From Arthrobacter globiformis (GTDB lineage: Bacteria; Actinomycetota; Actinomycetes; Actinomycetales; Micrococcaceae), in the NCBI RefSeq assembly GCF_030818015.1, contig NZ_JAUSZX010000001.1:3906001-3970000 (forward strand): a DNA stretch of 64,000 bases. Direction: 5' to 3'. Position numbers and translations under genes: made by a program. Position 1 is the first letter of the stretch. Each line of letters starts with the position of its first letter. Below the pieces are notes generated by a model. It worked only from the letters and a program-made list of their open reading frames with translations, had not been told where the DNA came from and made no database searches. Shown in pieces: positions 32,249 through 53,363 of this stretch.

Positions 32249-32254
32249 GACGCC

Positions 32255-37654: not shown

Positions 37655-39145
37655 TTAGACGCTGGCGGCGATCCCGTCGCGGGAGATGGAGACCATGTCC
37701 TCGCGCGGCACCACCTTGATGCGCTCACGCACAACCTCAACGCCGTGGGAGCCGCCGGCGGCGGTGGCCTCGGCGCCGAGGGCGAGTTCGTGGGCGTCCA
37801 GTGCCAGCCAGCCTTCCCAGGTGGTGTATTCCACGCCCCGGCTTTCGAGCAGGTCGACGACGGCGCTGGCAGCGGGCGCCTCGGCAACCGGCAGGTTCTC
37901 GCGGTCTTCCAGCAGGAAGGTCACGGTCTCCAGGGCATCGCCCTTGGTGTGGCCGATCAGGCCCACCGGTCCGCGCTTGATCCAGCCGGTGGCGTAGATG
38001 CCGGGGACGTGCTCGCCGGAGGCGTCCAGGACGCGGCCGCCGGCGTTCGGGACGACGCCCTTCTTGTGGTCGAACTCGATCTCCGGCAGGGCCGAACCGA
38101 AATAGCCGATGGCGCGGTAGACGGCCTGGACCGGGTAGTCGATGTACTCGCCGGTGCCACGGGCGTTGCCCGTGCCGTCCAGTTCGGTGCGCTCAAACTT
38201 AATGCCGCTGACACGCCCGGGGTTCTCGGCGTCGTCGTAAATTTCGACCGGGCTGTGCAGGAAGTGCAGGTGCAGGCGGCGGGAGGCCTTGAGCTCGGAG
38301 ACGTCCTCGGGCTGCTCGGCGATCCAGTTGGTGAGCGTGCCCACCATGGTTTTGATCTGATTGTTGCTCTGGATCTGCCGGTCCGATTCCTCGTCGAACT
38401 CGAAGTCCTCCGGGTACAGGATGATGTCCACGTCCTTGGAGTGGGACAGTTCGCGGAGCTCCAGCGGGGTGAACTTGACCTGGGCTGGGCCGCGGCGGCC
38501 GAAGACATGGACGTCGGTGACGGGCGATGCCTTCAGGCCGGCGTAGACGTTGTCCGGGATCTCGGAGACCAGCAGGTCGTCGGCGTGCTTGGAGAGGACG
38601 CGGGCCACGTCGAGGGCGACGTTGCCGTTGCCGATCACGGCGATTTCCTTGGCGTCCAGCGGCCATTCGCGGGAAACGTCCGGGTGGCCGTCGTACCAGG
38701 AGACGAAGTCCGCGCCGCCGAAGGAGCCCTCGAGTTCGATGCCCGGGATGTTCAGGTCGGCGTCCTTGATGGCGCCGGTGGCGAAGATGACGGCGTCATA
38801 GTGCGCGCGCAGGTCCTCGATGGAGAGGTCCGTGCCGTAGTCGACGTTTCCGAAGAAGCGGATGTCGCCGCGGTCCAGGACCTTGTGCAGGGCGTTGACG
38901 ATGCCCTTGATGCGCGGGTGGTCCGGGGCCACGCCGTAGCGGATCAGGCCGTAGGGTGCCGGGTAGCGGTCAAAGAGGTCGATGCTCACGGTCAGCTCGC
39001 CGCTCTTGACGGCCTCGCTCTTGGTGAGGATGTCCGCTGCGTAGACGCCGGCCGGGCCGGATCCGATGACGGCCACGCGCAACGGGCGGGCGGCGGTTCC
39101 TACGGTGGTGCTGGTTGACACGGCTGTGTTCCTTTTCTTCTGCAT
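37655..39145 (-). CDS. Ferredoxin-NADP reductase, FprA-like (copy 2, in the cobA operon)
   Basis: A 496-residue adrenodoxin-reductase-type flavoprotein, closely similar to the copy at 18179-19612 along its whole length. FAD motif VAVIGSGPAGVYAAD, NADP motif IGNGNVALDVARVL, C-terminal TGWIKRGPVGLIGHTKGDA. It follows cobA by 63 bp in the same direction and should supply electrons through ferredoxin to the siroheme sulfite reductase encoded at 50.7 kb. Two starts are possible: ATG 39145, whose ribosome site and AUG lie in the 3' arm of a leader hairpin, or GTG 39121 with AAAGGA upstream, which fits copy 1 better. Confidence 0.92.
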   Translation of the reverse strand: MQKKRNTAVSTSTTVGTAARPLRVAVIGSGPAGVYAADILTKSEAVKSGELTVSIDLFDRYPAPYGLIRYGVAPDHPRIKGIVNALHKVLDRGDIRFFGNVDYGTDLSIEDLRAHYDAVIFATGAIKDADLNIPGIELEGSFGGADFVSWYDGHPDVSREWPLDAKEIAVIGNGNVALDVARVLSKHADDLLVSEIPDNVYAGLKASPVTDVHVFGRRGPAQVKFTPLELRELSHSKDVDIILYPEDFEFDEESDRQIQSNNQIKTMVGTLTNWIAEQPEDVSELKASRRLHLHFLHSPVEIYDDAENPGRVSGIKFERTELDGTGNARGTGEYIDYPVQAVYRAIGYFGSALPEIEFDHKKGVVPNAGGRVLDASGEHVPGIYATGWIKRGPVGLIGHTKGDALETVTFLLEDRENLPVAEAPAASAVVDLLESRGVEYTTWEGWLALDAHELALGAEATAAGGSHGVEVVRERIKVVPREDMVSISRDGIAASV

Positions 39146-39204
39146 CGGTTGCTCCGTAGACGCCCTTTTGAACCTTCATAAGGGCAGTTATGGAGCAATC
39201 GATG
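39143..39204 (-). promoter_or_regulatory. Leader hairpin that hides the fpr copy 2 start, between cobA and fpr
   Basis: In the mRNA, CAUCGAUUGCUCC pairs with GGAGCAACCGAUG (12 of 13 positions). Inside, after symmetrical 6-base loops, GCCCUU pairs with AAGGGC. The 3' arm holds the GGAG ribosome site and the AUG of fpr. The 5' arm starts 4 bases after the cobA stop codon, so a ribosome ending cobA would open it: a translational coupling device is likely. A terminator or attenuator is the alternative. Confidence 0.6.
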
Positions 39205-39208
39205 GGTT

Positions 39209-40480
39209 TCAGGGGGTGAGAACGCGGGTGGTGCTGGTGCGGGGCTTGTTGGGGCTGGTGGTGCTGTAGTCAGCGGTTTTGAAGTGCGACGGCGCGAAGG
39301 GGCTGACGCGGACAACGTCACCGATGACGATCACTGCTGGATTGGCGACGCCGGCGGCCTCAGCCTGGTCGGCTATGGTGCCGAGGGTGCCGATGGTGAC
39401 GCGCTGGTCCGGCAGGTAGCCGTTTTCAACAATACCAACTGGTGTGTCATCGGGCAGGCCGGCGTTGCCGAGGGCGGACGCGGATTCGCGCAGCTGGCCC
39501 ACGCCCATGAGGAGCACCACGGTGTGGTCGGCGCGGGCCGGGATCTCGGACAGTTCCTCGTGGCCGGTGACAACGCTGAAGCCCTTGGCCAGGCCGCGGT
39601 GCGTGACCGGGATACCGGCGGCCGCGGGGACGGAGATCGCGGATGTCACACCGGAAACCACTTCCACCTCGACGCCGTGCTGGCGGCAGAATTCTGCTTC
39701 CTCGCCGCCGCGGCCCAGGACGTAGGGGTCGCCGCCTTTGAGGCGCACCACGCGGTGGCCTTGCAGCGCCTCCTCGACCAAGATTCGGTTGATCTCGGCC
39801 TGGGGCACGGGGTGGTGGCCGGGGGTCTTGCCGACCTCGATGACGCGGACATCCGGCGCGAGTTCGTTGAGCAGTTCACGCGGACCGAGTCGGTCGGCGA
39901 CGACAACGTCGGCCTGGCCCAGCAGCCGGCGGCCGCGGACGGTGATGAGGCCGGTGTCGCCGGGGCCGCCGCCGACGAGGGCTACCGATCCCCGGTGGGC
40001 GCGCCGGCGGCGCAGCGGCAGGTCGCCGGACTCCAGGGCGGTGGCGACTGCGTCGCGCAGGGCCATGGCACGGCGAGGGTCTCCCCCGGCATTGACGGCG
40101 ATCTTGACGTCGTCCACCACGGCGACGGCGGGCGTCCAGGCGGCGGAGGACTCATGGTCGGAGGCATTGACGCACCAGACGCGCTGCGCCTCGGCGTCGC
40201 CCGCTACGCGGGTGTCGACGGCGGGATCGCCGGTGGCGGTCTGGACGAACCAGACGCCGTCGACGTCGTCGGAGCGGTAGGTGCGGGGCTGCCAGATGAG
40301 CAGGCCGGCGTCGGCGAGTTCGCGGAGCGCGGCGGTGGCCTCGGGGGCTACCACGGTGACGCGGGCACCGGCGTCGAGCAGGCCCTTCGCGCGGCGCGCA
40401 GCAACGCGTCCGCCGCCCACTACCAGCACGGGGCGGCCAAGGAGGCGCAACGCCGTGGGGTAAATGTCCTGAATTGCCAT
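39209..40480 (-). CDS. cobA: Siroheme synthase: precorrin-2 dehydrogenase / uroporphyrinogen-III methyltransferase fusion
   Basis: A 423-residue two-domain enzyme. Residues 1-160 are a Met8/CysG-N-like precorrin-2 dehydrogenase (RPVLVVGGGRVAARRAKGLLDAGARVTVVAPE). Residues about 165-415 are the SAM-dependent uroporphyrinogen-III C-methyltransferase (VALVGGGPGDTGLITVRG, RLKGGDPYVLGRGGEE, GVTSAISVPAAAGIPVTHRG). Together they turn uroporphyrinogen III into sirohydrochlorin; iron insertion would be done by the CbiX-like protein at 52551. Siroheme is the cofactor of the sulfite reductase here. First gene of cobA-fpr. Its promoter carries the sulfur block described at 40487-40557, and its start is probably leaderless. 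Confidence 0.93.
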   Translation of the reverse strand: MAIQDIYPTALRLLGRPVLVVGGGRVAARRAKGLLDAGARVTVVAPEATAALRELADAGLLIWQPRTYRSDDVDGVWFVQTATGDPAVDTRVAGDAEAQRVWCVNASDHESSAAWTPAVAVVDDVKIAVNAGGDPRRAMALRDAVATALESGDLPLRRRRAHRGSVALVGGGPGDTGLITVRGRRLLGQADVVVADRLGPRELLNELAPDVRVIEVGKTPGHHPVPQAEINRILVEEALQGHRVVRLKGGDPYVLGRGGEEAEFCRQHGVEVEVVSGVTSAISVPAAAGIPVTHRGLAKGFSVVTGHEELSEIPARADHTVVLLMGVGQLRESASALGNAGLPDDTPVGIVENGYLPDQRVTIGTLGTIADQAEAAGVANPAVIVIGDVVRVSPFAPSHFKTADYSTTSPNKPRTSTTRVLTP

Positions 40481-40486
40481 GGATCA

Positions 40487-40557
40487 ACGGTAGGGCCGCG
40501 TCACATTCCCCAACAACGCAACGGAAACACCAGTTCACGCAAGGTAACGCTGCGTCA
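40487..40557 (-). promoter_or_regulatory. Sulfur-regulon promoter of cobA-fpr
   Basis: Minus strand, upstream to downstream: TGACG (40553-40557), 13 nt, CGTGA, 7 nt, TTTCCG, 5 nt, TTG (40514-40516). The TTG begins a -35 box, followed by 18 nt and the -10 TACCGT (40487-40492), which ends 6 nt before the ATG. The block of 44 bp ends 33 nt before the start, exactly as at the ssu-type and sir promoters in this window. Confidence 0.7.
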
Positions 40558-40680
40558 CATTAGTTTCTCCCAAGGTTTAAGCCCTGCGCGTGCATTCGGG
40601 ACGAAGAATGTCTGTGGCCAGCCCTACAATAACTGGGATCGGGATCGCCGATCGGTCTCAACATGGGGGAAGGGGACTAG

Positions 40681-42846
40681 TTGTCTCTGCACGAAAACGT
40701 CCATCCGCGGACGCGCCCTGGTCTTCTGACCAGGAGCATTGCCACAGCCGGCAGCATCGCGTTGCTTGCCGGACTTCTGATGGCTCCGGCAGCCCAGGCG
40801 CTGCCGATGGAAACAGGCACTGTCACGGAGCCCGCACCGGCTCCGGTTGAGCCGGTACCGGTAGACCCGGCACCGGCCGACCCGGCTCCGGCAGGAGAGC
40901 CGTCAGCCGAGGCCACGCCGACGGAAACCGCACCCGCCGACGCCGCGCCGGTGGAAACCGCACCCGCCGAGGTGCTTCCCGCGGAAGTTGTGCCCACGGA
41001 GGTGACACCAGCCGCACCGGAAAACATCAGCTTGCCGGTAATCGAAGGGGATCCCGTCGTAGACGGCAACCTCACCTCCACGGGCGGTCAGTGGAGCGGC
41101 GCCGGCTGGATCCAATACACCTGGATCATCGACGGGGTTCCCGTCCAGACCGCCGGTCACGTGGTTGGCGAAGCTGATGTCCTCAAAATCATCCCCGCCA
41201 TGGCCGGCAAGAGCGTCCAGCTCACTGTGACGGCATCATCGGACGCACAGGCCGCCGGAACCGAAGCATCAGCCGTGGCCGTCAGTGTGAGACCGGCGGC
41301 CTTCACTGTTGCCTGGAGCAACGCGGTGACCGGCAGGCCCGCAGTCGGGCAGGAACTGCGGTTGAACCCGCTGACCACCCAGGGAACCGTGACCTACCAG
41401 TGGTTCCGCGGAGCCGTGGCCATCACGTCGGCGACAGCCCCACGCTATACAGTCACCCCTGGCGACGTGGGACAGAAGCTGTGGGCCAAGGTGACCCTGT
41501 CTGCCCCGGGCTACTTATCCAAGCAACTCTCGTCCGTTCAGGTCGTAGGTGTCACCGCGACATTCGTGGCAGCACCTGTGCCCACCATTGGCGGAACCGC
41601 ACGCGTGGGCCAGGTGCAGACGGCGAATGCAGGAGCGTGGGCTCCCGGCGGTGCAGCGCTGTCCTACCAGTGGTACCGGGGAACAACGGCTATCGCAGGA
41701 GCCGTCGGCTATAGGTACACCGCGACGGCGGCTGACTACGGCAAGGCCCTCAAGGTGCGGGTGCGGGCAACCAAGGCCGGCTTCGTAACACTGGACCGCT
41801 ACTCCACTGCCCGCACAATTGGTGCGGGAACAATCGTGGCCACCAAATCTCTCCTCGTGACAGGTGTACACCGGTACGGACAGACGCTTCGCATATCGCA
41901 GGGCTGGACGCCCGGAGTCACACTCAAATACCAGTGGTACCGGAACGGCGTGGCGATCCGGGGAGGAACGGCTTCGTCGCTTTACCTCAATCCCGGTTTT
42001 ATCGGTTCCAGGGTGAACGTGAAGGTCACCGTCTCCAAGGCCGGCTACGCGAGCCGCGCGGCCAGTACCAAGCTCGTCACGGTGGGCAAGGCCGTGATCA
42101 CGCCAAGAACAGCACCGAAGGTCACCGGAGGCCAGTGGCTAGGGGCGACACTCACGGCGAACCCGGGCACCTACTCGCCGGCACCTTCCGCCTACGGATA
42201 CCAGTGGTACCGGAATGGCGTGGCAATCTCCGGCGCACGGTACAAGACCTACCGGATAGCCGCCGCAGATAACGGGAAGTCTCTTTCGGTAAGAGTCTGG
42301 GCCAGCAAGACCCACTACGACACCCGCGCGGCAGGGAGCCCCGCAGTGAAACTGCCCACTTGGGCGGTGACCGTTCTTCGCGGTGACGGCACTTACAGGG
42401 TGGGAACCCAGATCAAGCCGGGCCTGTACAAATCCACTGGCGGATCCTTCTGCTACTGGGCACGTCTTCGCGGGTTCTCGGGAAACGTTAGTGACATCAA
42501 CGCGAACGACATCGTCTCAGGTGTGACCTACGTGCAGATCCTTCCTGGTGACGTTGGCTTCGAAAGCGATGGTTGTGGAGCGTGGACCACTGTCCCGTCA
42601 ACTGGGGCAAGGGCTACAAGCATCACCCGGGACGGCACCTACCGGGTGGGGATCGACATCCTGCCGGGAACGTACTACGGATTCGCTTCGGGGGACTTCT
42701 GCTACTGGGAAACCTTGAGCGGGTTTACCGGAACGTTTAACGAAATCTATGACAACGACATCCCCTCCGGGTGGATCGTCGTGACCATTCCGTCGTGGGC
42801 CAGGGGCTTCTCAGTCCATGGCTGCGGGACATTGACCCGCGGCTAA
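40681..42846 (+). CDS. Secreted protein with Ig-like repeats and twin C-terminal Cys domains
   Basis: A 721-residue exported protein starting at TTG 40681 with AAGGGG five bases upstream. A signal peptide (about 1-40, ending AAQA) precedes a Pro/Ala/Glu-rich low-complexity stalk (about 45-115). About five Ig-like repeats follow (each with YQWYRNGVAI or similar and a KAGY/KAGF strand), related to the Ig-like repeat in the heme peroxidase. At the end are two copies of a 70-residue unit with DGTYRVG, FCYWxxLxGF and GC, each with two cysteines. No anchor or catalytic motif is seen, so it may be a surface or adhesion protein. Divergent from cobA; TACAAT at 40625-40630 is a good -10. Confidence 0.82.
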   Translation: MSLHENVHPRTRPGLLTRSIATAGSIALLAGLLMAPAAQALPMETGTVTEPAPAPVEPVPVDPAPADPAPAGEPSAEATPTETAPADAAPVETAPAEVLPAEVVPTEVTPAAPENISLPVIEGDPVVDGNLTSTGGQWSGAGWIQYTWIIDGVPVQTAGHVVGEADVLKIIPAMAGKSVQLTVTASSDAQAAGTEASAVAVSVRPAAFTVAWSNAVTGRPAVGQELRLNPLTTQGTVTYQWFRGAVAITSATAPRYTVTPGDVGQKLWAKVTLSAPGYLSKQLSSVQVVGVTATFVAAPVPTIGGTARVGQVQTANAGAWAPGGAALSYQWYRGTTAIAGAVGYRYTATAADYGKALKVRVRATKAGFVTLDRYSTARTIGAGTIVATKSLLVTGVHRYGQTLRISQGWTPGVTLKYQWYRNGVAIRGGTASSLYLNPGFIGSRVNVKVTVSKAGYASRAASTKLVTVGKAVITPRTAPKVTGGQWLGATLTANPGTYSPAPSAYGYQWYRNGVAISGARYKTYRIAAADNGKSLSVRVWASKTHYDTRAAGSPAVKLPTWAVTVLRGDGTYRVGTQIKPGLYKSTGGSFCYWARLRGFSGNVSDINANDIVSGVTYVQILPGDVGFESDGCGAWTTVPSTGARATSITRDGTYRVGIDILPGTYYGFASGDFCYWETLSGFTGTFNEIYDNDIPSGWIVVTIPSWARGFSVHGCGTLTRG

Positions 42847-42860
42847 CCTCCGGACAGCAG

Positions 42861-42898
42861 AAAGCCCGACGGCGATTACCGCCGTCGGGCTTTTCTTA
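42861..42898 (+). terminator. Rho-independent terminator after the Ig-repeat gene
   Basis: AAAGCCCGACGGCG (42861-42874) pairs perfectly with CGCCGTCGGGCTTT (42880-42893) around ATTAC, followed by TTCTT. A textbook terminator 15 bp past the stop codon. Confidence 0.93.
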
Positions 42899-42971
42899 TG
42901 CCCTCGGAGCGGTTGGTCCGGTACCGCCGCGGGGCACTTTGACGGCAAGAACGGCCAGAATCCTCCTCATC

Positions 42972-43005
42972 CTCGGCGTGTCCCATGTCTCGGCGTGTCC
43001 CATGT
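42972..43005. repeat. 17-bp perfect tandem repeat
   Basis: CTCGGCGTGTCCCATGT occurs twice head to tail (42972-42988, 42989-43005) in the gap between the Ig-repeat gene and the ABC permease gene. A partial third echo (GTCAATGTG) follows. No role is evident. Confidence 0.9.
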
Positions 43006-43059
43006 CAATGTGCCCCGGTTGGGTCGCGGAGAAGGCACCTCAGGGACAACAGACAGCAG

Positions 43060-43092
43060 AAAGCCCGACGGCGGGAGTCGCCGTCGGGCTTT
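43060..43092 (-). terminator. Terminator after the ABC transporter operon, identical arms to 42861
   Basis: The same 14-base arms as at 42861-42893 occur again (43060-43073 and 43079-43092), even with the same ACAGCAG lead, but with loop GGAGT. On the minus strand the right-arm complement ends in TTTCTG, suiting termination of the operon that stops at 43113. Confidence 0.85.
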
Positions 43093-43112
43093 CGGGTTCA
43101 GTGCGGAGGTCC

Positions 43113-44159
43113 TTAGCGGGTGCTGCCTGCCAGGAGGCCGCGACGCTGAAGCAGTCGCTTCTCAATCGGCGCGAACACCAGCAGCTCGATCAGGATGCCG
43201 ACGGCCAGGATCAGGAGGATCGCGGACATCACGATGGTCATATCGGCGAGGTCGCGGCCCTGGTTCAGCATGGAGCCCAGGCCGAAGCCGATGGTGCCGC
43301 CCACCGCAATGATTTCTGCGGCCATGAGCGAACGCCACGAGAAGGCCCAGCCCTGCTTGAGGCCGCTGAGGTAGCCGGGAAGTGCTGCAGGGAGGATGAT
43401 CTGCACGGCCATCTGCAGCCGTGAGGCGCCGAGGACGGTGCCCACGCTGCGGTACTGCGGCGGGATCTGGTCAACACCGGAGATCAGGCCGTTGATGATC
43501 GACGGGATCGCGCCCATGAACACCACGAAGTACACGGTGGCGTCGGTAAGTCCGAACCAGATGATGGCGGCCGGCACCCAGGCGACCGATGGGAGAACCT
43601 GCAGGCCGGAAATCAGCGGGCCGAACGCCCTGCGCAGCGGCGCCACCTGGGCCAGGAGCAGACCGACCGGCGTGGCGATCGCGACGCTGATCAGGAACCC
43701 CAGGAGCCCGCGCTGCAGCGACGTCCAGACGGCCTCCTGCAACGATCCCTCAGCCCATAGCGTGCCGAACTGCTCCAGCACATCCATGGGGCCGGGCACC
43801 TGGTCGCGGCGCTTGAGGCCCAGCGAAACGTAGAACTGCCAGATGATGATGAGCACCACGACAGCGGCGACCGGCAGCAGAATGCGGCTCCAGTCGATGC
43901 GCGCCTTGCGGACCGCATCCGACTGCAGCGAGTCCAGTCCGGATTCGAGTTCGCGCAGGTCCGCCGAGCCGGTGGAGGACCTGGTCAGCGCCGCGTGCAC
44001 CTTGGCAGCAGGGCTGGTTGAGCCCTTGGTCTCGCTCCCCACCCCCTCCCCAGGCTCGACCAGCGTTGACTCGGGCTCGCCCAGCATGGGCTCGGGCTCG
44101 CCCAGCGGGGACTCGGTCGCCTCGGGCGACTCGGCCACGGGAGATGAATTACTTGGCAT
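43113..44159 (-). CDS. ABC transporter permease, sulfonate/nitrate/taurine type (SsuC-like)
   Basis: A 348-residue inner-membrane permease. An unusual hydrophilic, Glu/Pro/Ser-rich N-terminal extension of about 85 residues precedes a six-helix core with the EAA motif (GASRLQMAVQIILPAALPGYLSGLKQGWAFSW) that docks to the ATPase. This is the SsuC/TauC/NrtB family. It overlaps the ATPase gene by 11 bp. The substrate is not visible, but the operon carries the same promoter block as the cys and siroheme operons, so an organosulfur compound is the best guess. Confidence 0.88.
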   Translation of the reverse strand: MPSNSSPVAESPEATESPLGEPEPMLGEPESTLVEPGEGVGSETKGSTSPAAKVHAALTRSSTGSADLRELESGLDSLQSDAVRKARIDWSRILLPVAAVVVLIIIWQFYVSLGLKRRDQVPGPMDVLEQFGTLWAEGSLQEAVWTSLQRGLLGFLISVAIATPVGLLLAQVAPLRRAFGPLISGLQVLPSVAWVPAAIIWFGLTDATVYFVVFMGAIPSIINGLISGVDQIPPQYRSVGTVLGASRLQMAVQIILPAALPGYLSGLKQGWAFSWRSLMAAEIIAVGGTIGFGLGSMLNQGRDLADMTIVMSAILLILAVGILIELLVFAPIEKRLLQRRGLLAGSTR

Positions 44160-44874
44160 GGCGGCGGATCTCCTCTCGCAGCCGGGCGGTGATGACCCCG
44201 GTCAGCTGTCCGGCAAGACCGGCGTCGGTACGGTGTTCTTCGGTGACTTCCCATTCCTGCACAACGCGGCCGGGCCGGGAGGACAGCAGCAGGACGCGCT
44301 GGCCCAGCCGGACTGCCTCGCGGACGTTGTGGGTCACAAAGACGATGGTGCGTCCGGTTTCCTTCCAGATGCGCTCAAGTTCGTCGTGCAGCAGGTCGCG
44401 CGTGATGGCGTCCAGGGCCGCGAACGGCTCATCCATGAGGAGCAGCTGGCGGTCCTGCGCGAGTGAGCGGGCCAGGGCCACACGCTGGCGCATGCCGCCG
44501 GACAGTTCGTGCGGCCGGCGGTCCGCGGCCTCGGAAAGATGGACCAGGTCCAGCAGTTCGGCAGCCTTCACCCGCCGCTCGGCCTTGCCGAGACCGCGCA
44601 GTTTCAGCGCCAGCTCCACGTTTTCGCGGGCGGTGAGCCACGGAAACAGGGCGGAGTCCTGGAACATGAAGGCGGCGCCGTCGCTGGGCACCTCCAGGGC
44701 GCCCGACGTCGGGAGCTCCAGTCCCGCCATGATGTTCAGCAGGGTGGACTTGCCGCAGCCGGACGCACCGAGGAGCGCGACGAACTCGCCCCTGCCGATG
44801 GTGGCGTTGACGTCGTCCAGCACCGGGGCGCCTTCGCCGAAGCGCTTGCCCAGGTTTTCCAGTACGACTGGCAT
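44149..44874 (-). CDS. ABC transporter ATPase, sulfonate/nitrate/taurine type (SsuB-like)
   Basis: A 241-residue ATP-binding subunit. Walker A LLGASGCGKSTLL, Q-loop MFQDSALFPWLT, signature LSGGMRQRVALARSLA, Walker B LLLMDEPFAALD and switch His VTHNVREAV are all intact. It belongs to the SsuB/TauB/NrtD family by length and by the short C-terminus. Middle gene of binding protein-ATPase-permease, powering uptake through the overlapping permease. Confidence 0.92.
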   Translation of the reverse strand: MPVVLENLGKRFGEGAPVLDDVNATIGRGEFVALLGASGCGKSTLLNIMAGLELPTSGALEVPSDGAAFMFQDSALFPWLTARENVELALKLRGLGKAERRVKAAELLDLVHLSEAADRRPHELSGGMRQRVALARSLAQDRQLLLMDEPFAALDAITRDLLHDELERIWKETGRTIVFVTHNVREAVRLGQRVLLLSSRPGRVVQEWEVTEEHRTDAGLAGQLTGVITARLREEIRRHAK

Positions 44875-44929
44875 GGTCCCGTCCTTTGTTCGTGGTGCGT
44901 TAAATGCGGCGGTGCAGATGCGGGCCGGG

Positions 44930-46084
44930 CTAGTCCTGGCCCAGCCCTGCAGCTGTGGTTTTTTCCGTGGCCACTGAGTTCAGCGCCCGGAGGTCGAAGA
45001 GGCCGTTGAGGTCGGCCTGCTTCGTGGTGCCGGCATCCACGCCGTCCTGCAGCAGCTTCTTGTACGTTCCCGCCAGCGGGTCCACCGTGAACACGATGTT
45101 CTTCAGCGAACGGTCAACGACATTTTGGGCCAATGCCTTGCCGGCGTCCTGTTTCAGGGCGGCGTTGACGACGGCGGCCTTCTCGGCGGCCGGGGCGTCG
45201 TTGAGCCACTTCACGGCCTCGACGTGGCCCTTGAGCAGCGCCTCGACAGTCTGCGGGTGCTCCGCAGCGAACTTCTTGTTCACGATCAGGATGGTGGTGG
45301 GGAACTCGCCCGGCTTGCCCGTTAGCGACCCGTCCCACAGGTCCTTCTCATCCACCAGTACCTTCGCGCCAGCCTGGAGCACCAGACGGGAGGCCCACGG
45401 CTCAGGCAACCACGCGCCGTCGAGCTTACCGTCCTGGAACAGCTTCAGGGTCTGGGCGTTCTCGGTGGGGTTGATCGCAACGTCCCCGCCGCCGTCGGTG
45501 TTGGTTTTGTAGCCCTGCTTACCCAGCCAGGCGCGCAGTGCCACGTCCTGGGTGCCGCCCAGCTGCGGGGAGGCCAGGGTCTTGCCCTTCAAATCGGCCG
45601 CGGTCCTGATCTCGGGCTTGACCACCAGCTGCGCGCCGCCGGAGGCTGCCCCGGCGATGATGCTGATGGACTCGCCCTTGCTCTTGACGAACGAGTTGAT
45701 GGCAGGGTTAGGGCCGATGTACGTGGCATCGATCGCGCCGGCATTCAGCGCCTCGATCGCGGCCGGGCCCGCGTTGAACACCTGGGTGCTCAACTTAGTG
45801 TCGCCCAGCTCCTTCGCGATGAAGCCCTGCTTCACTCCGACCAGCGCCGGCGCGTGGGTGATGTTCCCGAAGTAGCCCAGCTTCAGCTCGGCCGCGGGGC
45901 TGCCCGCTGCGTCAGGGGCCGCCGAGGCATTGGAATCCCGGGCCACGGCCGACGCAACAACGGCACCCACACTGATCAGCAGGACGAGGCCGACGGCCAG
46001 CGCGACTTCCAAGGCGCGGCGGCGCTTGGGCGTCTGGCTTTCGCCGGCCACAATGCGGGTCATGCCCGGCCTGGAAGTACTCAT
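44930..46084 (-). CDS. ABC transporter substrate-binding protein, SsuA/NrtA-like
   Basis: A 384-residue binding protein of the NMT1/SsuA family. Residues about 23-45 form an uncleaved or signal-anchor helix (ALEVALAVGLVLLISVGAVVASAVA); no lipobox is evident, unusual for a Gram-positive binding protein. The core starts ELKLGYFGNITHAPALVGVKQGF and contains GPNPAINSFVKS and LPEPWASRLV. ATG 46084 is supported because the conserved sulfur promoter block ends 33 nt before it, as at cobA and sir; a TTG-started frame reaches 46120 but would run into the promoter. First gene of the transporter operon. Confidence 0.88.
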   Translation of the reverse strand: MSTSRPGMTRIVAGESQTPKRRRALEVALAVGLVLLISVGAVVASAVARDSNASAAPDAAGSPAAELKLGYFGNITHAPALVGVKQGFIAKELGDTKLSTQVFNAGPAAIEALNAGAIDATYIGPNPAINSFVKSKGESISIIAGAASGGAQLVVKPEIRTAADLKGKTLASPQLGGTQDVALRAWLGKQGYKTNTDGGGDVAINPTENAQTLKLFQDGKLDGAWLPEPWASRLVLQAGAKVLVDEKDLWDGSLTGKPGEFPTTILIVNKKFAAEHPQTVEALLKGHVEAVKWLNDAPAAEKAAVVNAALKQDAGKALAQNVVDRSLKNIVFTVDPLAGTYKKLLQDGVDAGTTKQADLNGLFDLRALNSVATEKTTAAGLGQD

Positions 46085-46090
46085 GGATTC

Positions 46091-46161
46091 ACCATAGGGA
46101 CTGGCATAAACGGGGTTCAACGGAGCGGAAACCCGGGGTCACGCAGGTTCATGCAACGTCA
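46091..46161 (-). promoter_or_regulatory. Sulfur-regulon promoter of the ssu-type transporter
   Basis: Minus strand: TGACG (46157-46161), 13 nt, CGTGA, 7 nt, TTTCCG, 5 nt, TTG (46118-46120), 18-nt spacer after the -35 hexamer, and -10 TATGGT (46091-46096), ending 6 nt before ATG 46084. Aligned without gaps to the cobA promoter about two thirds of positions are identical over 46 bp. Confidence 0.7.
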
Positions 46162-46210
46162 TATTCGGCCACAAAAATCCGCCTACCCGCGGGCCCCTGG
46201 AATTTCGGGG

Positions 46211-47377
46211 CTAATCCCCCTTGACATTGACCAGCTGGCGAAGCCGGTGCCGCACCTTCACCAGATCCGCGGCGTCGCGCATGACCTGATCGATGGGTTT
46301 GTAGGCTGCCGGGATCTCGTCGATGAACGCCTCGCTGGCCCGGAACTCGATGCCGTGCATGGCCTCCTTGAGCTGCGCCAGCGAGAAGGCCTTGCGCGCG
46401 GCATTACGCGAATACTCCCGGCCGGCACCGTGCGGCGAGGAGTTCAGGGAAGTCGTGTTGCCGAGTCCCTCCACAACGTAGGACGCCGTTCCCATGGACC
46501 CCGGAATCAGGCCGGGGTCGCCGGCTTCGGCCTTGATGGCGCCCTTGCGCGACACCCAGACGGACTTCCCGTAATGCGTTTCCTGCTGGGTGAAGTTGTG
46601 GTGGCAGTTGATCCGCTCGGTCTCCTTGACTGCTCCACCGACCCAGTCACTAAACTGCCGGATCAGGCGGTCCATCATCTCCTCGCGGTTCAGCAGGGCG
46701 AAGTGCTGGGCCCAGCGCAGCTCCTTGATGTACCGGGTGAACGCCGCCGTGCCCTCCTCCAGGTAGGCGAGGTCCGGGTCCTCCAGCGTGATGCGTTTGT
46801 CCCGTGCCACGCCCTGCGCCACCTTGATGTGGTGCTGGGCTATCTTGTTCCCGATGCCGCGTGAGCCGGAATGCAAGAACAGCCAGACGGCGTCGGTCTC
46901 GTCCGTGCACACCTCGATGAAGTGGTTGCCGGAGCCGAGGGAGCCAAGCTGGAGGTCCCATTTCGCCACGTACTGTGCGGGGTTGAACCCGGCCTTTTCG
47001 GCCCGCCTGTGCAGTTCGGCGATGCGTGGCTGCGCCGTGGCCGTCACCTTGCGGTTGTTGTGGCCGGCGGACAGCGGGATGGCGCGCTCGATGTTCTCGC
47101 GGAGCGGCTTCCGGTCCCGCGGAAGCTCTTTAAGGTTGTACTGGGTCCGCACCGCGATCATGCCGCACCCGATATCCACGCCGACGGCGGCCGGAATGAT
47201 CGCGCCGAGCGTCGGGATGACGGACCCCACGGTTGCTCCCTTGCCCAGATGCGCGTCCGGCATCAGGGCCAGATGCGGGTAGATGAAGGGCAGTCGGGAG
47301 GTGGTCAGTGCCTGCTCACGGGTCCTGTCGTCCAGGATCGATGCCCAGTTGATGAGCCGGCTGGTGATGGTTTCCAT
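46211..47377 (-). CDS. rtcB: RtcB-family RNA ligase-like protein
   Basis: A 388-residue RtcB-family protein. E. coli RtcB joins 2',3'-cyclic phosphate or 3'-phosphate to 5'-OH RNA ends with GTP and Mn2+. Metal and active-site motifs are intact: MPDAHLGKGATVG, GVDIGCGM, LGSGNHFIEV, LHSGSRGIGNKIAQ, NCHHNF, and SPHGAGREYSR with the guanylylated His. ATG 47377 has GGGAGG upstream; the frame continues to 47491 through a palindrome and is unlikely coding. No tRNA-splicing or Rtc partner genes are nearby; it may act in RNA repair. Flanked by sulfur genes without obvious connection. Confidence 0.92.
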   Translation of the reverse strand: METITSRLINWASILDDRTREQALTTSRLPFIYPHLALMPDAHLGKGATVGSVIPTLGAIIPAAVGVDIGCGMIAVRTQYNLKELPRDRKPLRENIERAIPLSAGHNNRKVTATAQPRIAELHRRAEKAGFNPAQYVAKWDLQLGSLGSGNHFIEVCTDETDAVWLFLHSGSRGIGNKIAQHHIKVAQGVARDKRITLEDPDLAYLEEGTAAFTRYIKELRWAQHFALLNREEMMDRLIRQFSDWVGGAVKETERINCHHNFTQQETHYGKSVWVSRKGAIKAEAGDPGLIPGSMGTASYVVEGLGNTTSLNSSPHGAGREYSRNAARKAFSLAQLKEAMHGIEFRASEAFIDEIPAAYKPIDQVMRDAADLVKVRHRLRQLVNVKGD

Positions 47378-47440
47378 GCTTCGCCTCCCACTCTTGATGA
47401 TGGTGGGCCGGGCGTGGGGCGGCAAGGGCCCGGAAACAGC

Positions 47441-47506
47441 GAGGTCGCCGGAAGCGTGTGAAGTCGCCGCAAATTTGCGGCGATCTCGCACGTTTCCGGC
47501 GACCTC
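47441..47506. repeat. 66-bp long palindrome between cysN and rtcB
   Basis: GAGGTCGCCGGAA (47441-47453) pairs with TTCCGGCGACCTC (47494-47506). The centre TCGCCGCAAATTTGCGGCGA (47464-47483) is a perfect 20-bp palindrome, and the 10-base stretches between are partly complementary. It lies 13 bp past the cysN stop. It may terminate the sir-cysHDN operon or be a repeated intergenic element; the unit GAxxTCGCCGxAA recurs within it. Confidence 0.8.
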
Positions 47507-47518
47507 AGTGCACAGACT

Positions 47519-48940
47519 TTAGATCGAGTAGCGCTCGTCCTCGTGGTCGCCCGGGTGGTCCTTGACCAGGCCGGCGGCGAGGGTGTTGCCGTCGAGCGGG
47601 TCAATCACCAGGAACGCGCCTGTGCGGCGGTGGTGCAGGTAGTTCTCGAGCGGCAGCGCGGCGGCGAGCCGGAGCTGAGCGTGCCCGATGTCGTTGAGCT
47701 CCAGGCTGGATGCGCCCTCGAGGTTGAAGGTGGCAAGGTCCAGCTTGCCGTTGACGCTGCGGACCAGGGCCTGCACGGTGCGGGTGCCGTGCTTGACCAG
47801 GACCTTGGCGCCCTCGCGGAGCGGCTTCGGGGACAGCCAGCATAGCTGCGCGTACAGGTCGGCCGAGCTTTCGCGGACCGTGCCTGCGGCGGCGATGGTG
47901 TCACCGCGGGCGACGTCGAACTCGTCGGCCAAACGGATCGCCACCGACTGCGGGGCGGAGGCTTCCTCCAGCGAGGCGCCGGCGAAGTCGATGCCGGTGA
48001 CCGTGGTGGTGCGCGGGTCCTGGCCGGGGGTCAGCACGCTGACCTTGTCCCCCACCTTCACGGAACCCTCGGTGATCTGTCCGGCGTAGGCACGGTAGTC
48101 GCGGTATTTCTCGACGTCGAGCCCGCCGGCAACGGCGTCGGGTGCCAGCGCACCCTGCGGGCGGATGACCAGCTGCACCGGGAAGCGGAAGCTCTCCAGG
48201 TGGCTTTCGAGTTCATCGGCGGCGGGCAGCGTCTCGAGCACCTCGAGCAGCGCGGGGCCGGTGTACCAGGGGGTACGCTCCGAGCGCTCCACCACGTTGT
48301 CGCCGTCGAGCGCGGAAACCGGAACCACCAGCAGGTCGGTGATCCCATCGGATCCGAGGCCCAGCTCGCGGCCCACCTGCTGCACGTCGGCCTCGATGTC
48401 GCGGAACACGGTCTCGCTGAAGTCCACGAGGTCGATCTTGTTCACGGCCACAATCACGTGGGCCACGCGCAGCAGCTGCAGCACAGACAGGTGCCGGCGG
48501 GTCTGCTCCAGGACACCCTTGCGGGCGTCAATGAGTACGACGACGGCATCCGCGGTGGACGCGCCGGTCACCGTGTTCTTGGTGTACTGCACGTGCCCGG
48601 GGCAGTCCGCGAGGATGAAGCTGCGGCGGTCCGTGGCGAAGTAGCGGTAGGCGACGTCGATGGTGATGCCCTGCTCGCGCTCGGCACGCAGGCCATCGGT
48701 CAGCAGGGCCAGGTCAATGCCGCCCTTGTCGCCGCCGAAGCCGCGGTCGGCCGAGGTGCGGGCAACGGCGTCGAGCTGGTCGGCGAGGATGGCCTTGGAG
48801 TCGTGCAGGAGGCGGCCCACCAGCGTGGACTTCCCGTCGTCGACCGATCCTGCGGTGGCGAAGCGGAACAGCGAGGCGGAAGCGAGCGGGGCCTCGTCCA
48901 GGAGCGCCGCGGCGCGGGCGGTGTCAATGTCGGTAGTCAT
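47519..48940 (-). CDS. cysN: Sulfate adenylyltransferase subunit 1 (GTPase) CysN
   Basis: A 473-residue EF-Tu-like GTPase that drives the CysD adenylyltransferase, forming APS from sulfate and ATP. G motifs: GSVDDGKSTLVGRLL, DVAYRYFAT, ADCPGHVQYTKN, NKIDL. The APS kinase domain (CysC) fused in some CysN proteins is absent, and no cysC is seen nearby, in agreement with direct APS reduction by the CysH here. Overlaps the cysD stop by one base. Last gene of sir-cysH-cysD-cysN. Confidence 0.95.
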   Translation of the reverse strand: MTTDIDTARAAALLDEAPLASASLFRFATAGSVDDGKSTLVGRLLHDSKAILADQLDAVARTSADRGFGGDKGGIDLALLTDGLRAEREQGITIDVAYRYFATDRRSFILADCPGHVQYTKNTVTGASTADAVVVLIDARKGVLEQTRRHLSVLQLLRVAHVIVAVNKIDLVDFSETVFRDIEADVQQVGRELGLGSDGITDLLVVPVSALDGDNVVERSERTPWYTGPALLEVLETLPAADELESHLESFRFPVQLVIRPQGALAPDAVAGGLDVEKYRDYRAYAGQITEGSVKVGDKVSVLTPGQDPRTTTVTGIDFAGASLEEASAPQSVAIRLADEFDVARGDTIAAAGTVRESSADLYAQLCWLSPKPLREGAKVLVKHGTRTVQALVRSVNGKLDLATFNLEGASSLELNDIGHAQLRLAAALPLENYLHHRRTGAFLVIDPLDGNTLAAGLVKDHPGDHEDERYSI

Positions 48941-49887
48941 TAGAAGTAGCCGTCCTTCTTGCGGTCTTCCATGGCGGCCTCGGAGATGCGGTCATCCGCA
49001 CGGGTGGCGCCACGTTCGGTGATGGTGGAGGCAGCAACTTCGATCACGACGTCGCGCACGGTGGCGGCGGCCGATTCGACGGCGCCGGTGCAGGACATGT
49101 CACCGACGGTCCGGTAGCGGACGGTCTTGGTGATGACTTCCTCGTGCGGCAGCGGCTGGGACACCTCGCCCACCGCACGCCACATGCCGTCGCGGGCGAA
49201 GACCTCGCGGTCGTGGGCGTAGTACAGGCCCGGAAGTTCAATGTTTTCGCGCTCGATGTAGCGCCACACGTCCAGCTCGGTCCAGTTGCTGATGGGGAAC
49301 GCACGCACGTGCTGGCCCACCGTGTGGCGGCCGTTGTAGAGGTTCCACAGTTCGGGGCGCTGGTTGCGCGGGTCCCACTGGCCGAACTCGTCGCGCAGGC
49401 TCAGGATGCGCTCCTTGGCGCGGGCCTTGTCCTCGTCGCGGCGGCCGCCGCCGAAGACGGCGTCGAACTTGTTGGACTGGATGGCGTCCAGCAGCGGAAC
49501 GGTCTGCAGCGGGTTGCGGGTGCCGTCGGCACGCTCCGCCAGCTCGCCGCGGTCGATGAATTCCTGAACGCTGCCGACGACGAGCTTCAGTCCCAGCCGC
49601 TCCACCGTCCGGTCGCGGAAGTCGATGACCTCGGGGAAGTTGTGGCCGGTGTCCACGTGCAGCACCGGGAAGGGGACCTTGCCCGGCCAGAACGCCTTGG
49701 TGGCCAGGTGCAGCATGACCACGGAATCCTTGCCGCCGGAGAACAGCAGCGCCGGCTTCTCGAACTCGGCAACAACCTCGCGGATGATGTGGATCGCTTC
49801 GGATTCGAGGGTGTCCAGGCTGGAGAGGCGCGTTGAGGCAGCTGCGTCGGTCACCAGGGTGGACTCCTCAGTTAGGAAAGTGCTCAT
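48940..49887 (-). CDS. cysD: Sulfate adenylyltransferase subunit 2 CysD
   Basis: A 315-residue ATP sulfurylase catalytic subunit of the PAPS-reductase-like fold. The PP-loop motif is LLFSGGKDSVVML near 48, followed by HVDTGHNFPEVIDFRD, AVFGGGRRDEDKARAKER and PISNWTELDVWRYIERE, ending with the typical DRKKDGYF. ATG 49887 overlaps the cysH stop (ATGA), and its own stop overlaps cysN, so translation is coupled throughout. Works with CysN to activate sulfate. Confidence 0.96.
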   Translation of the reverse strand: MSTFLTEESTLVTDAAASTRLSSLDTLESEAIHIIREVVAEFEKPALLFSGGKDSVVMLHLATKAFWPGKVPFPVLHVDTGHNFPEVIDFRDRTVERLGLKLVVGSVQEFIDRGELAERADGTRNPLQTVPLLDAIQSNKFDAVFGGGRRDEDKARAKERILSLRDEFGQWDPRNQRPELWNLYNGRHTVGQHVRAFPISNWTELDVWRYIERENIELPGLYYAHDREVFARDGMWRAVGEVSQPLPHEEVITKTVRYRTVGDMSCTGAVESAAATVRDVVIEVAASTITERGATRADDRISEAAMEDRKKDGYF

Positions 49888-50669
49888 ACGTGTAATCCGC
49901 ATTCTGTCTTGTTGGTTCCTGCCCAGCGGCCGGCGCGGGGGTCCTCGCCGGGTGCCACCTTGCGGGTGCAAGGCTGGCAACCGATGGAGGGGTAGCCCTG
50001 GGACAGGAGCGGGTTGACGGGCAGGAGGTTGTCGTCGGAGTACTGGACCAGCTGGTCGAACGTCCAGGCGGCCATTGGGTTGACCTTGACCAGGCCGTTG
50101 GCCTCGTCCCACGTCACCAGCGGAGTGTTGGTGCGGGTGGGGGCCTCGTCGCGGCGGACGCCGGTGAACCACAGTTCGTAGCCGGAGAGGGTGCGGCGCA
50201 GCGGAGCCACCTTGCGGAGGGCGCAGCACTGGGCGGCGTCGCGGGCGAACAGGTCCTTGCCCAGGAGGCGGTCCTGCTGCTCCACAGTGTTCTCGGGGAG
50301 CACGTCCACCACGTTGACGCGGAGGTTCGCGGCCACCTCGTCACGTGTGGCGTAGGTTTCCGGGAAGTGGTAGCCGGTCTCGAGGAACAGGACGTCAACG
50401 CCGGGAAGCTGGTCCGCGACGAGCGCGGGCAGCACGGCGTCGGCCATGGAGCAGGCGACGGCGACGGCGGGCATGTCGAAGTTGCGCTCGACCCAGGCAA
50501 TGACGTCGCGGGCCGGGGCGTCCCAGCCGAGCTCGGCGGCGCCGGCCTCGGCCAGGGCCTTCAGCTCCTCGGTGGAGCGCTTCGCGGGTGACCCGGTGCT
50601 GGCAGGCGATGCCGCCGCCGCCCCTTCAGACCCAACCACCGGGTTTACTCCGAGTGCGTGCTTGCTCAC
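49884..50669 (-). CDS. cysH: Adenylylsulfate (APS) reductase CysH
   Basis: A 261-residue assimilatory reductase converting APS to sulfite with thioredoxin. The iron-sulfur ligands C148, C149 (AQCCALRK) and C231, C234 (CQPC) are present, which marks the APS-using [4Fe-4S] type rather than the PAPS type. The catalytic Cys257 lies in KTECGLHV at the C-terminus. LETGYHFPETY and FTGVRRDEAPTR are substrate-binding. It overlaps sir by 4 bp and cysD by 4 bp. The first 30 residues are a variable Ala/Ser/Pro-rich lead. Confidence 0.95.
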   Translation of the reverse strand: MSKHALGVNPVVGSEGAAAASPASTGSPAKRSTEELKALAEAGAAELGWDAPARDVIAWVERNFDMPAVAVACSMADAVLPALVADQLPGVDVLFLETGYHFPETYATRDEVAANLRVNVVDVLPENTVEQQDRLLGKDLFARDAAQCCALRKVAPLRRTLSGYELWFTGVRRDEAPTRTNTPLVTWDEANGLVKVNPMAAWTFDQLVQYSDDNLLPVNPLLSQGYPSIGCQPCTRKVAPGEDPRAGRWAGTNKTECGLHV

Positions 50670-52405
50670 TGAAGTGCCTCCTCGTCAGCTGCGTGGGCCC
50701 ACTCGGCGAAGGTCTGGCCTTCGGCGCGGTCGGCTACGAAGCGTCGGACAACCCGCTCCACGTAGTCGGGCAGGTCCGCGACGTAGACCTTGAGGCCGCG
50801 GACGGTGCGTCCCAGGCCAGCCTCTTCGCGGTCGGTGGAAGCCAGCCCGCCACCCAGGTGGACCTGGAAACCCGGGGTGGGATCGCCGTCGGGCGTCGGG
50901 AGCATCATGCCCTTGAGTCCGATGTCCGCGGTCTGGATGCGGGCGCAGGAGTTGGGGCAGCCGTTGATGTGCAGGGACAGCGCGTGCGGGAGCTGGCCGC
51001 TGTCTGCGAGGTCGGCCAGGCGGCGTTCCAGCCCGGCCACGGCGGTTGCTGCGGTCATCTTGGTTTCCACGATGGCCAGCTTGCAGTATTCGATGCCGGT
51101 GCACGCGATGGTGCCGCGGCGGAACACGGACGGGCGTGCGGACAGGCCCAGCGCGTCGAGTTCGGCCACGAGCGGCTCCACCTCGTTCTTCTCCACGTCC
51201 AGCACCACGATCTTCTGGTGCGGGGTGGTGCGCAGGCGGTAGGAGCCGCGGGCCTCGAGGGTGTCCGCCAGCTTCACCAGCTGCGCGCCGGAGAGGCGGC
51301 CGGCAATGGGGGTGGCGCCGATGAAGAACTTGCCGTCCTTCTGCTCGTGCACGCCCACGTGGTCGCCCGGGGTGGACGGCTTGGGTGCGGCGGGACCGTC
51401 GGCGAGCTTGTAGCCGAGGTATTCGTCCTCGAGGATCTGGCGGAACTTCTCCGGACCCCAATCGGCCAAAAGGAACTTCAGGCGAGCCTTGGTGCGCATC
51501 CGGCGGTAGCCGTAGTCACGGAAGATGCTGGTAACGCCGAGCCACACGTCCGCGGCCTGCTCCGGCGTGACGAACGCGCCGAGGCGCTTGCCGAGCATCG
51601 GGTTGGTGGACAGGGCACCGCCGACCCACAGGTCGTAGCCCACGCCGAGTTCGGGGTGGCGGACGCCCACCAGGGCGCAGTCGTTGATCTCGTGCACCAC
51701 GTCCTGGCTCGGGTGGCCGGTGATGGCGGTCTTGTACTTGCGCGGCAGGTTGGAGAGCAGCGGGTTGCCAATGAATCGCTCCCCCAGCTCTTCGATGAGC
51801 GGGGTGGGGTCGATGATCTCGTCCTTGGCGATGCCTGCTACCGGGGAGCCGAGGATGACACGCGGAACGTCGCCGCAGGCCTCGGTGGTGGACAGGCCGT
51901 TGCTCTCGAGGCGGCGCCAGATCTCGGGGATGTCCTCCACGCGGATCCAGTGCAGCTGGATGTTCTGGCGGTCTGTGAGGTCCGCGGAATCGCGTGCGAA
52001 GTCCACGGAGATCTGGCCGATGACGCGCAACTGCTCGGTGGTCAGCGCACCGCCGTCGATGCGGACGCGGAGCATGAAGTACTTGTCCTCAAGCTCGTGC
52101 GGCTCCAGCGTTGCGGTCTTGCCGCCGTCGATCCCGGGCTTGCGCTGCGTGTACAGGCCCCACCAGCGGAAACGGCCGTGCAGGTCCTGGCCGGGGATGG
52201 CGTCGAAGCCTTCCTTGGCATAGATGGACTCGATACGCTCGCGGACGTTGAGGCCGTCGTCTTCCTGTTTCCAGGTTTCGTTGGCGTTAAGCGGGGTGGT
52301 TCCGTCCACCTTCCACTGGCCGTGAGGCTTGGCGGCGGGTCGGGAGGCACGGGCGGGGCGCGCGGGCTTGTCCGTGGACGCTCCGGCTAGAGCTGTATCA
52401 GTCAT
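50666..52405 (-). CDS. Ferredoxin-dependent assimilatory sulfite reductase (NirA/Sir type)
   Basis: A 579-residue siroheme/[4Fe-4S] enzyme reducing sulfite to sulfide with six electrons from ferredoxin. Two nitrite/sulfite reductase half-domains are visible (DLTDRQNIQLHWIRVEDIP; HQKIVVLDVE) and the cluster/siroheme cysteines fall in CTGIEYCKLAIVETK and GCPNSCARIQ, as in mycobacterial NirA. First gene of the sulfate operon and the likely consumer of siroheme from cobA and of ferredoxin reduced by FprA. No Shine-Dalgarno is present; its promoter carries the sulfur block with a -10 that predicts a leaderless mRNA. Nitrite reduction cannot be excluded but the neighbours argue for sulfite. Confidence 0.94.
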   Translation of the reverse strand: MTDTALAGASTDKPARPARASRPAAKPHGQWKVDGTTPLNANETWKQEDDGLNVRERIESIYAKEGFDAIPGQDLHGRFRWWGLYTQRKPGIDGGKTATLEPHELEDKYFMLRVRIDGGALTTEQLRVIGQISVDFARDSADLTDRQNIQLHWIRVEDIPEIWRRLESNGLSTTEACGDVPRVILGSPVAGIAKDEIIDPTPLIEELGERFIGNPLLSNLPRKYKTAITGHPSQDVVHEINDCALVGVRHPELGVGYDLWVGGALSTNPMLGKRLGAFVTPEQAADVWLGVTSIFRDYGYRRMRTKARLKFLLADWGPEKFRQILEDEYLGYKLADGPAAPKPSTPGDHVGVHEQKDGKFFIGATPIAGRLSGAQLVKLADTLEARGSYRLRTTPHQKIVVLDVEKNEVEPLVAELDALGLSARPSVFRRGTIACTGIEYCKLAIVETKMTAATAVAGLERRLADLADSGQLPHALSLHINGCPNSCARIQTADIGLKGMMLPTPDGDPTPGFQVHLGGGLASTDREEAGLGRTVRGLKVYVADLPDYVERVVRRFVADRAEGQTFAEWAHAADEEALQ

Positions 52406-52411
52406 GCATCG

Positions 52412-52482
52412 ACTGTAGAGCCGCGCCGAAATACGTCACAAAGGACCGGAAATGCTAAGTCACCTAAGGAAACATTTCGTCA
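52412..52482 (-). promoter_or_regulatory. Sulfur-regulon promoter of sir-cysHDN
   Basis: Minus strand: TGACG (52478-52482), 13 nt, GGTGA, 7 nt, TTTCCG, 5 nt, TTG (52439-52441), then an 18-nt spacer and -10 TACAGT (52412-52417) ending 6 nt before ATG 52405. Same elements, same spacings and same 33-nt distance to the start as at cobA and the ssu-type operon. Confidence 0.72.
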
Positions 52483-52550
52483 TGACTCGCCGGGAAGCCT
52501 TGAACGGCGCCGCCGGCTGTGCTTTCCGACGGCCTGCTTCCCGGCGTTTT

Positions 52551-53303: not shown

Positions 53304-53363
53304 AGGGGCTAGCGTAACGTTGGAGCTGCACTGTCCGCCCCTTGAAATATGCCGGGACACCCC

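Follow-up and report, generated by a model that had tools for sequence, protein, structure and literature searches.

A putative operator of four direct repeats upstream of three sulfur-assimilation operons in Arthrobacter globiformis

Within a 64,000-nucleotide (nt) stretch of the Arthrobacter globiformis genome (contig NZ_JAUSZX010000001.1, positions 3,906,001 to 3,970,000 of the forward strand; the whole stretch is referred to as the window), three minus-strand operons related to sulfur assimilation are preceded by a 40-bp block of four 10-bp direct repeats, located directly upstream of promoters predicted to be leaderless. Taken as a whole, the data are best explained by a sulfur-assimilation regulon with leaderless promoters and one regulator, in which this block serves as the operator, a reading of the sequence that was given a probability of about 0.72. 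An initial annotation had described a 44-bp block at these promoters, with constant spacing between its elements and ending 33 nt before the start codon. Re-reading of the sequence showed the positions, the spacing and the distance to be correct at all three promoters, with the start codons at 40480, 46084 and 52405 on the minus strand. The annotation had missed the TANNNT −10 box, the four 10-bp direct repeats and the fact that the gene named cobA encodes a CysG-type fusion.

Architecture of the putative operator and predicted leaderless promoters

The three putative operators, read in the sequence and scored with a profile (given as E-values, E), are as follows:

40519..40558, minus strand: operator of cobA(cysG)-fprA, decamers GTGACGCAGC GTTACCTTGC GTGAACTGGT GTTTCCGTTG, profile E 1.9e-11
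46123..46162, minus strand: operator of ssuA-B-C, decamers ATGACGTTGC ATGAACCTGC GTGACCCCGG GTTTCCGCTC, profile E 1.1e-10
46163-46172, minus strand: weak fifth unit upstream in the ssu operator, GTGGCCGAAT, from a scan with a looser four-repeat pattern
52444..52483, minus strand: operator of sir-cysH-cysD-cysN, decamers ATGACGAAAT GTTTCCTTAG GTGACTTAGC ATTTCCGGTC, profile E 4.5e-9

The repeats have a consensus sequence of RTKWMC-N4, and every one of the four decamers has T at position 2 throughout the 52 aligned sites. The similarity between alignment columns was highest at lags of 10 (0.33) and 20 (0.51), with the other lags from 1 to 30 being lower (−0.23 at lag 30 and −1.22 at lag 11), and the value at lag 10 was reached by none of 20000 column permutations. 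In the cobA and sir blocks the repeats alternate, with repeats 1 and 3 being RTGAC-like and repeats 2 and 4 RTTWCC-like, while the ssu block has ATGAAC at repeat 2. All four repeats share one helix face; they span about −78 to −39 and immediately precede a minimal −35 region.

The 44-bp pattern, with up to 3 mismatches allowed, was found four times in the genome of 5,085,937 bases. The only copies without mismatch were those at the three named promoters, and the single match with 3 mismatches lay at window positions 446-489. As a control, the pattern read backwards gave no match in the whole genome. Using the looser pattern (RTKWMC decamers, 2 mismatches), four matches were detected in the window, all at the three promoters and two of them being registers of the ssu site; shuffled sequences averaged 0.03 matches.

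The promoter elements following the blocks were read as follows:

40511..40516, minus strand: −35 region of the cobA promoter, TTGTTG
40487..40492, minus strand: −10 region of the cobA promoter, TACCGT, 6 nt before the ATG
46115..46120, minus strand: −35 region of the ssuA promoter, TTGAAC
46091..46096, minus strand: −10 region of the ssuA promoter, TATGGT, 6 nt before the ATG
52436..52441, minus strand: −35 region of the sir promoter, TTGTGA
52412..52417, minus strand: −10 region of the sir promoter, TACAGT, 6 nt before the ATG

The leaderless promoters of actinobacteria are of the TANNNT type, ending 6 nt before the start codon, and the usual spacing between the −10 region and the transcript start places the latter at or next to the A of such an ATG. 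The same gap of 6 nt between TANNNT and ATG was present at all 188 sites counted in the window and related loci (described below), the ATG nearest to 6 nt being used where several fitted. As background, 288 of 5431 TANNNT sequences had an ATG at this gap in loci longer than 15 kilobases (kb), a count in which most of the motif sites are included. The first transcribed base at the three promoters should therefore be the A of the ATG or one beside it, with the predicted products being leaderless messenger RNAs (mRNAs). The spacer between the −35 and −10 regions is 18 nt, and a TTG follows the block after 2-3 nt at 183 of the 188 sites, representing a minimal and poor −35 region. In some relatives the block is shifted by one base (offsets of 25, 26 and 27) with TANNNT-N6-ATG unchanged. 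The constant 33 nt is thus explained by the leaderless promoter, which fixes the distance, and not by the regulator.

The initial annotation had also proposed that the conserved part upstream of the −35 region is the site of a sulfur regulator, and analysis of the sequence supports this. Three observations argue for a regulator site instead of a plain promoter: the upstream 40 bp is better conserved than the spacer between the −35 and −10 regions and the flank (in 58 distinct sir promoters, the bits per column are 1.44-1.82 for the decamers, 0.96 for the spacer and 0.74 for the sequence upstream), some of the additional sites found in relatives precede further ssu-type genes, and two genomes without sir are also without the motif.

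Conservation at related loci and occurrence across genomes

To describe the conservation of the block, the best 80 of 569 stretches encoding a relative of sir were used, these being the closest relatives and not a random sample, with records titled Arthrobacter, Pseudarthrobacter, Paenarthrobacter or Psychromicrobium. A position weight matrix (PWM) was built from 146 distinct sites, collected with a loose regular expression which itself fixes some letters. Scanning the 80 loci and the window gave 189 matches of at least 13 bits and none in the reversed sequences. These were labelled as sir (79), ssuA (51), cobA (36) or left unlabelled (23), the last group consisting, by reading, of ssuA leader open reading frames (ORFs), one missed ssuA start, cobA starts at locus ends and one antisense match over the end of cysN (L061, 17.6 bits), which was excluded from later counts (188). 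All matches but one therefore precede sir, ssuA (or its leader ORF) or cobA.

Where the start codon and 150 nt upstream of it were present (the window being counted), a site precedes sir in 79 of the 80 loci that could be tested (L066 being without a site and L031 excluded as not testable), cobA/cysG in 36 of 39 (L078, L079 and L080 being without) and ssuA in 66 of 67 (L082 being without). The orthologous promoters thus keep the elements. The cobA genes of L078 and L080, both without a site, lie about 1.7 kb past ssuA; that of L080 directly follows the ssu permease frame and may therefore need no promoter of its own.

A sequence-only profile (R1) was made from 52 sites, none from the window and some from near relatives. 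In this genome it recovered the three promoters at E 1.5e-9 to 3.6e-7, followed by matches at chance level (0.19, 0.21, 0.77 and 0.79), so that the matrix scores poorly elsewhere. The site at E 0.19 (G000:C1:395991-396017, L134) contains three good decamers, and 81 nt separate its end from a gene for an ATP-binding cassette (ABC) ATPase, which is followed by genes for an SsuC-like permease (by reading) and a luciferase-like monooxygenase. It may be a weak fourth target.

Among 121 genomes of the genus, R1 at E 0.05 gave three matches in 90, more than three in 26, two in one, one in three and none in one. The best match was at E 3.1e-6 or lower in 118 of the 121, the exceptions being G223, which is 68% complete, G169 and G214. 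No sir was found in either G169 or G214 at E 0.001. The sole R1 match of G169 (E 0.03, L133) lies at the start of an open frame reading like the end of cobA; G169 being without sir, the cobA-like remnant and its partial block look like pathway decay. In a set of 198 genomes of the order, six of the seven from the genus had three sites and none of the eight from other genera of the family had any, with four of the remaining 183 giving weak R1 matches that, when read, resembled a tandem repeat, coding sequence or chance. Thirteen genomes outside the genus were also checked for sir, which was present in four (E 1e-60), none of them with an R1 match.

Additional sites were examined by rescanning G169, G214 and the 26 genomes in which more than three matches had been found (28 in all) and choosing 20 among the matches listed, with gene identities taken from Pfam for L113, L120 and L123 and by reading for the others. 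Nine of the 20 precede sulfur-type genes or fall within an ssu promoter. L113 and L114 precede second ssuA-like genes, L115 an ssuA-like remnant and L123 and L124 another ssu-type operon, while in L131 ssuA is preceded by a second block. The last three of the nine, L120-L122 (E about 0.03 to 0.13), are degenerate four-repeat blocks, each from a different genome and upstream of a gene for a flavin reductase. Outside the nine, L126 and an ssuA promoter are separated by about 900 nt on one contig.

Genes of the three operons and leader reading frames in relatives

The genes following the three promoters are given below:

39209..40480, minus strand: CysG-type siroheme synthase (cobA of the initial annotation), TIGR01469 and TIGR01470 over cut-off
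37655..39145, minus strand: FAD/NAD(P) reductase, putative ferredoxin reductase (fprA), Pyr_redox_2, glutamate-synthase-type families below cut-off
44930..46084, minus strand: SsuA-family substrate-binding protein with a predicted leaderless start, TIGR01728 over cut-off
44149..44874, minus strand: SsuB/TauB-type ATPase, best NCBIfam matches below cut-off
43113..44159, minus strand: SsuC/TauC-type permease, best NCBIfam matches below cut-off
50666..52405, minus strand: sir, ferredoxin-type nitrite/sulfite reductase, NIR_SIR domains, NirA and sir families below cut-off
49884..50669, minus strand: CysH, (phospho)adenylyl-sulfate reductase, PRK02090 over cut-off
48940..49890, minus strand: CysD, TIGR02039 over cut-off
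47519..48940, minus strand: CysN, TIGR02034 over cut-off

The initial annotation had assigned the three operons to one sulfur pathway; the gene it named cobA encodes a CysG-type fusion of a siroheme synthase N-terminal domain and a uroporphyrinogen-III methyltransferase. The sulfite role of sir is inferred from its linkage to cysHDN, and the 37655..39145 reductase is presumed to act with ferredoxin. Between cysN and ssuA stands a gene for an RtcB-type RNA ligase (window 46211-47491, minus strand, families below cut-off). No regulator gene was noticed by reading between 37.6 and 54 kb of the window; a GntR-like regulator frame was read at 32249-32932 on the plus strand, about 5 kb from the end of fprA.

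In the window, ssuA itself uses the leaderless-type ATG and there is no leader ORF. At 27 of the 188 sites this ATG instead opens an ORF of 15-22 codons ending before ssuA:

L033, L038, L042-L046, L048, L051, L053, L054, L056, L058: loci with a leader ORF before ssuA
L060-L065, L067-L073, L081: further loci with a leader ORF before ssuA

A TGT Cys codon is present in all 27, within Gly-Arg-Cys in 26 and Gln-Arg-Cys in L081, the Arg-Cys (CGA-TGT) being conserved near the stop codon. These ORFs are candidates for a cysteine-sensing leader peptide. RNAalifold analysis of 24 of the 27 leader regions predicted 7 pairs, 2 of them with two-sided changes, at −4.31 kcal/mol; a hairpin at the stop codon of the leader is thus weakly supported. 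No match to Rfam was found at the gathering threshold for window positions 39000-53500.

Outside the genus, a short ORF with Cys codons was found upstream of sir in two of the four genomes read, belonging to two other families (L203, ...MCSCQCSCR, and L204, ...ICRGC). In NCBIfam, the leader ORF of L204 had a match below cut-off to NF042934, a putative leader peptide, and those of L042, L053, L081 and L203 had none. Leaderless polycysteine attenuators are said to have been described in mycobacteria by Canestrari in 2020. Known leader peptides with Cys codons and the ORFs of the relatives are alike in being short ORFs with one or more Cys codons before sulfur genes; the ssu leader ORFs differ in having one CGA-TGT near the stop. 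Leader peptides of actinobacterial cys genes have been treated previously (PMC1262725; papers given by PubMed Central (PMC) number are cited here from excerpts). The distribution suggests that sir is controlled at the DNA level in the Arthrobacter lineage and by attenuation in some others. A tentative joint reading, itself unlikely in all its parts together, is that a transcription factor (TF) from a family with no known part in sulfur control, bound cooperatively head-to-tail on the four 10-bp direct repeats, replaced attenuation by a cysteine leader peptide in this lineage, with both layers coexisting on one leaderless ssu transcript in part of it.

Proposed mechanism, candidate regulators and comparison with known systems

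In the mechanism proposed here, four identical DNA-binding units of one regulator would occupy the repeats as two head-to-tail dimers or as a short cooperative filament. When reduced sulfur is short, the bound protein, probably an activator arranged head-to-tail on one face of the DNA, would bring RNA polymerase to these promoters, which are poor by themselves; the effector could be, for example, O-acetylserine or sulfide. The leaderless mRNAs switched on would be those of sir-cysHDN for sulfate reduction and ssuABC for sulfonate uptake, along with those for siroheme and reductase supply (the cysG-type cobA and fprA).

A number of results count against this mechanism and the regulon it implies. 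The model was trained on sites from these very promoters, so that their conservation and the model are not independent. Of the 20 chosen weak additional sites, ten lie in coding or unrelated places. By reading, six of these are L125, L127, L128, L129, L130 and L132; the other four, L116-L119 (E 0.006-0.012), represent a single conserved intergenic site which adjoins a GC-rich hairpin and downstream of which no sulfur gene was seen. Regarding the regulator, none of the 16 PF00486 proteins of this genome (G000) was present in both G297 and G300 and absent from both G169 and G214, and the 11-bp period of GlnR/OmpR-type boxes is not that of the block, which is 10.

This comparison of TFs covered the families PF00486, PF12728 and PF12833 in a small, hand-chosen set of two motif-bearing (G297, G300) and two motif-less genomes (G169, G214). 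The nearest PF00486 fit, L141, is in G300 and not in G297, G169 or G214. As no PF00486 protein tracks the motif, a dedicated OmpR-type regulator is not supported. Of 34 HTH_17 (BldC-type) matches, 30 were compared; none of these fitted fully, and the pair L231/L217 was found in G000 and G297 with no reciprocal partner in G300, G169 or G214. For HTH_18/AraC-type proteins, both of those in G297 had reciprocal partners in the motif-less G214. The block, with its RTKWMC consensus and a period of 10, differs from a BldC-type operator, which has AT-rich AATTXXXX(C) repeats. Two orphan winged-helix proteins, L143 (G000:C1:1028300-1029400) and L146 (4708700-4709800), both end in EYSI with no receiver domain recognised by reading, and L143 is kept in all four compared genomes.

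The likeliest kind of regulator is a pleiotropic OmpR/PhoB-type winged-helix protein, for which the following are candidates. GlnR-, MtrA- and RegX3-like proteins and an orphan winged-helix protein (names by reading) are kept in all four genomes, and the block, like the tandem boxes of GlnR/OmpR-type proteins, is built from one half-site repeated directly on the same strand. Direct binding by GlnR or another pleiotropic OmpR-type regulator, with sulfur as one of its tasks, would fit the a-b-a-b order of GlnR boxes (gTnAc-n6-GaAAc), which resembles the alternation seen here, but those boxes have a period of 11 (PMC10704036) and a global regulator would be expected at many genes, with three strong sites present in this genome; it is considered unlikely.

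The sign of regulation is not told by the sequence alone, and the bound protein could be a repressor released on sulfur shortage. This is judged rather improbable, since the block lies wholly upstream of the minimal −35 region, a place typical of activators.

It is doubtful, more so than for repression, that an orthologue of the ROK-type CysR/SsuR of Corynebacterium glutamicum binds the block. The targets are similar (cysIXHDNYZ, fpr2 and ssuR), with sulfite reduction, reductase and sulfonate genes also found behind the block; the CysR box lies 3 bp upstream of the −35 region in activated promoters and the cysR and ssuR mRNAs are leaderless, but the box is a 10-bp inverted repeat, TGAAtnnAAt, and the block has direct repeats with a period of 10 (PMC2580772).

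Control by NnaR, a HemD-winged-helix fusion regulating siroheme-dependent nitrite reductase, is very improbable. An NnaR-like gene (411-amino-acid frame by reading, G000:C1:1654034-1655266, L092) has cysG- and nirB-like genes next to it, occurs in G297 and G300 but not in G214, and is followed just past its end by a chance-level R1 match (E 0.77); nirA (SCO6102, putative nitrite/sulfite reductase) is also listed as a Streptomyces NnaR target (PMC10704036). However, the NnaR box, CTCAC[A/C]-N16-[T/G]GTGAG, is inverted (PMC6277429, PMC11162112). It gave no match in the window at 0 or 1 mismatch and 65 matches with up to 3, fewer than the chance mean of 94, one 3-mismatch match touching the upstream edge of the cobA block. 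No R1 site precedes nirB, and G169, a genome without sir, still has NnaR.

It is scarcely credible that the three promoters, all within 12 kb, are recent mutual copies without regulatory meaning, as the flanks show no relationship (139 distinct sites, 0.25 bits per column on the upstream side) and the decamers keep 1.15-1.32 bits. In addition, of the three loci with no site before cobA, two (L078 and L080) have this gene some 1.7 kb past ssuA.

If the block is the operator of a sulfur regulon, a compact regulon with an unusually regular operator and predicted leaderless promoters would be defined for a large genus of soil bacteria, and the common switch at three gene groups indicates one shared regulator of sulfur uptake and reduction. 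The motif is absent from two genomes without sir and otherwise near-universal in the sample; profiling the presence and absence of TFs could therefore name this regulator. A search of the open-access literature, with subscription papers outside its scope, found no description of this operator.

Among known systems, the CysB/Cbl regulon of Escherichia coli is alike in function, activating sulfate and sulfonate assimilation. CysB and Cbl are of the LysR type, and LysR operators are dyads, unlike the direct repeats found here. The CysR/SsuR regulon of C. glutamicum shares its targets (sulfite reductase with sulfate activation, ferredoxin reductase and sulfonate genes) and a box just upstream of the −35 region, and differs in its inverted box and ROK regulator (PMC2580772). 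GlnR boxes, with GTnAC/GAAAC cores, are likewise tandem direct a-b-a-b half-sites, but with a period of 11 and at nitrogen genes (PMC10704036). BldC operators can also have four head-to-tail direct repeats in one promoter, with an AT-rich sequence and at developmental genes (PMC5859096). The system described here is therefore a functional analogue of the CysB and CysR regulons and, as far as tested, a member of none of these.

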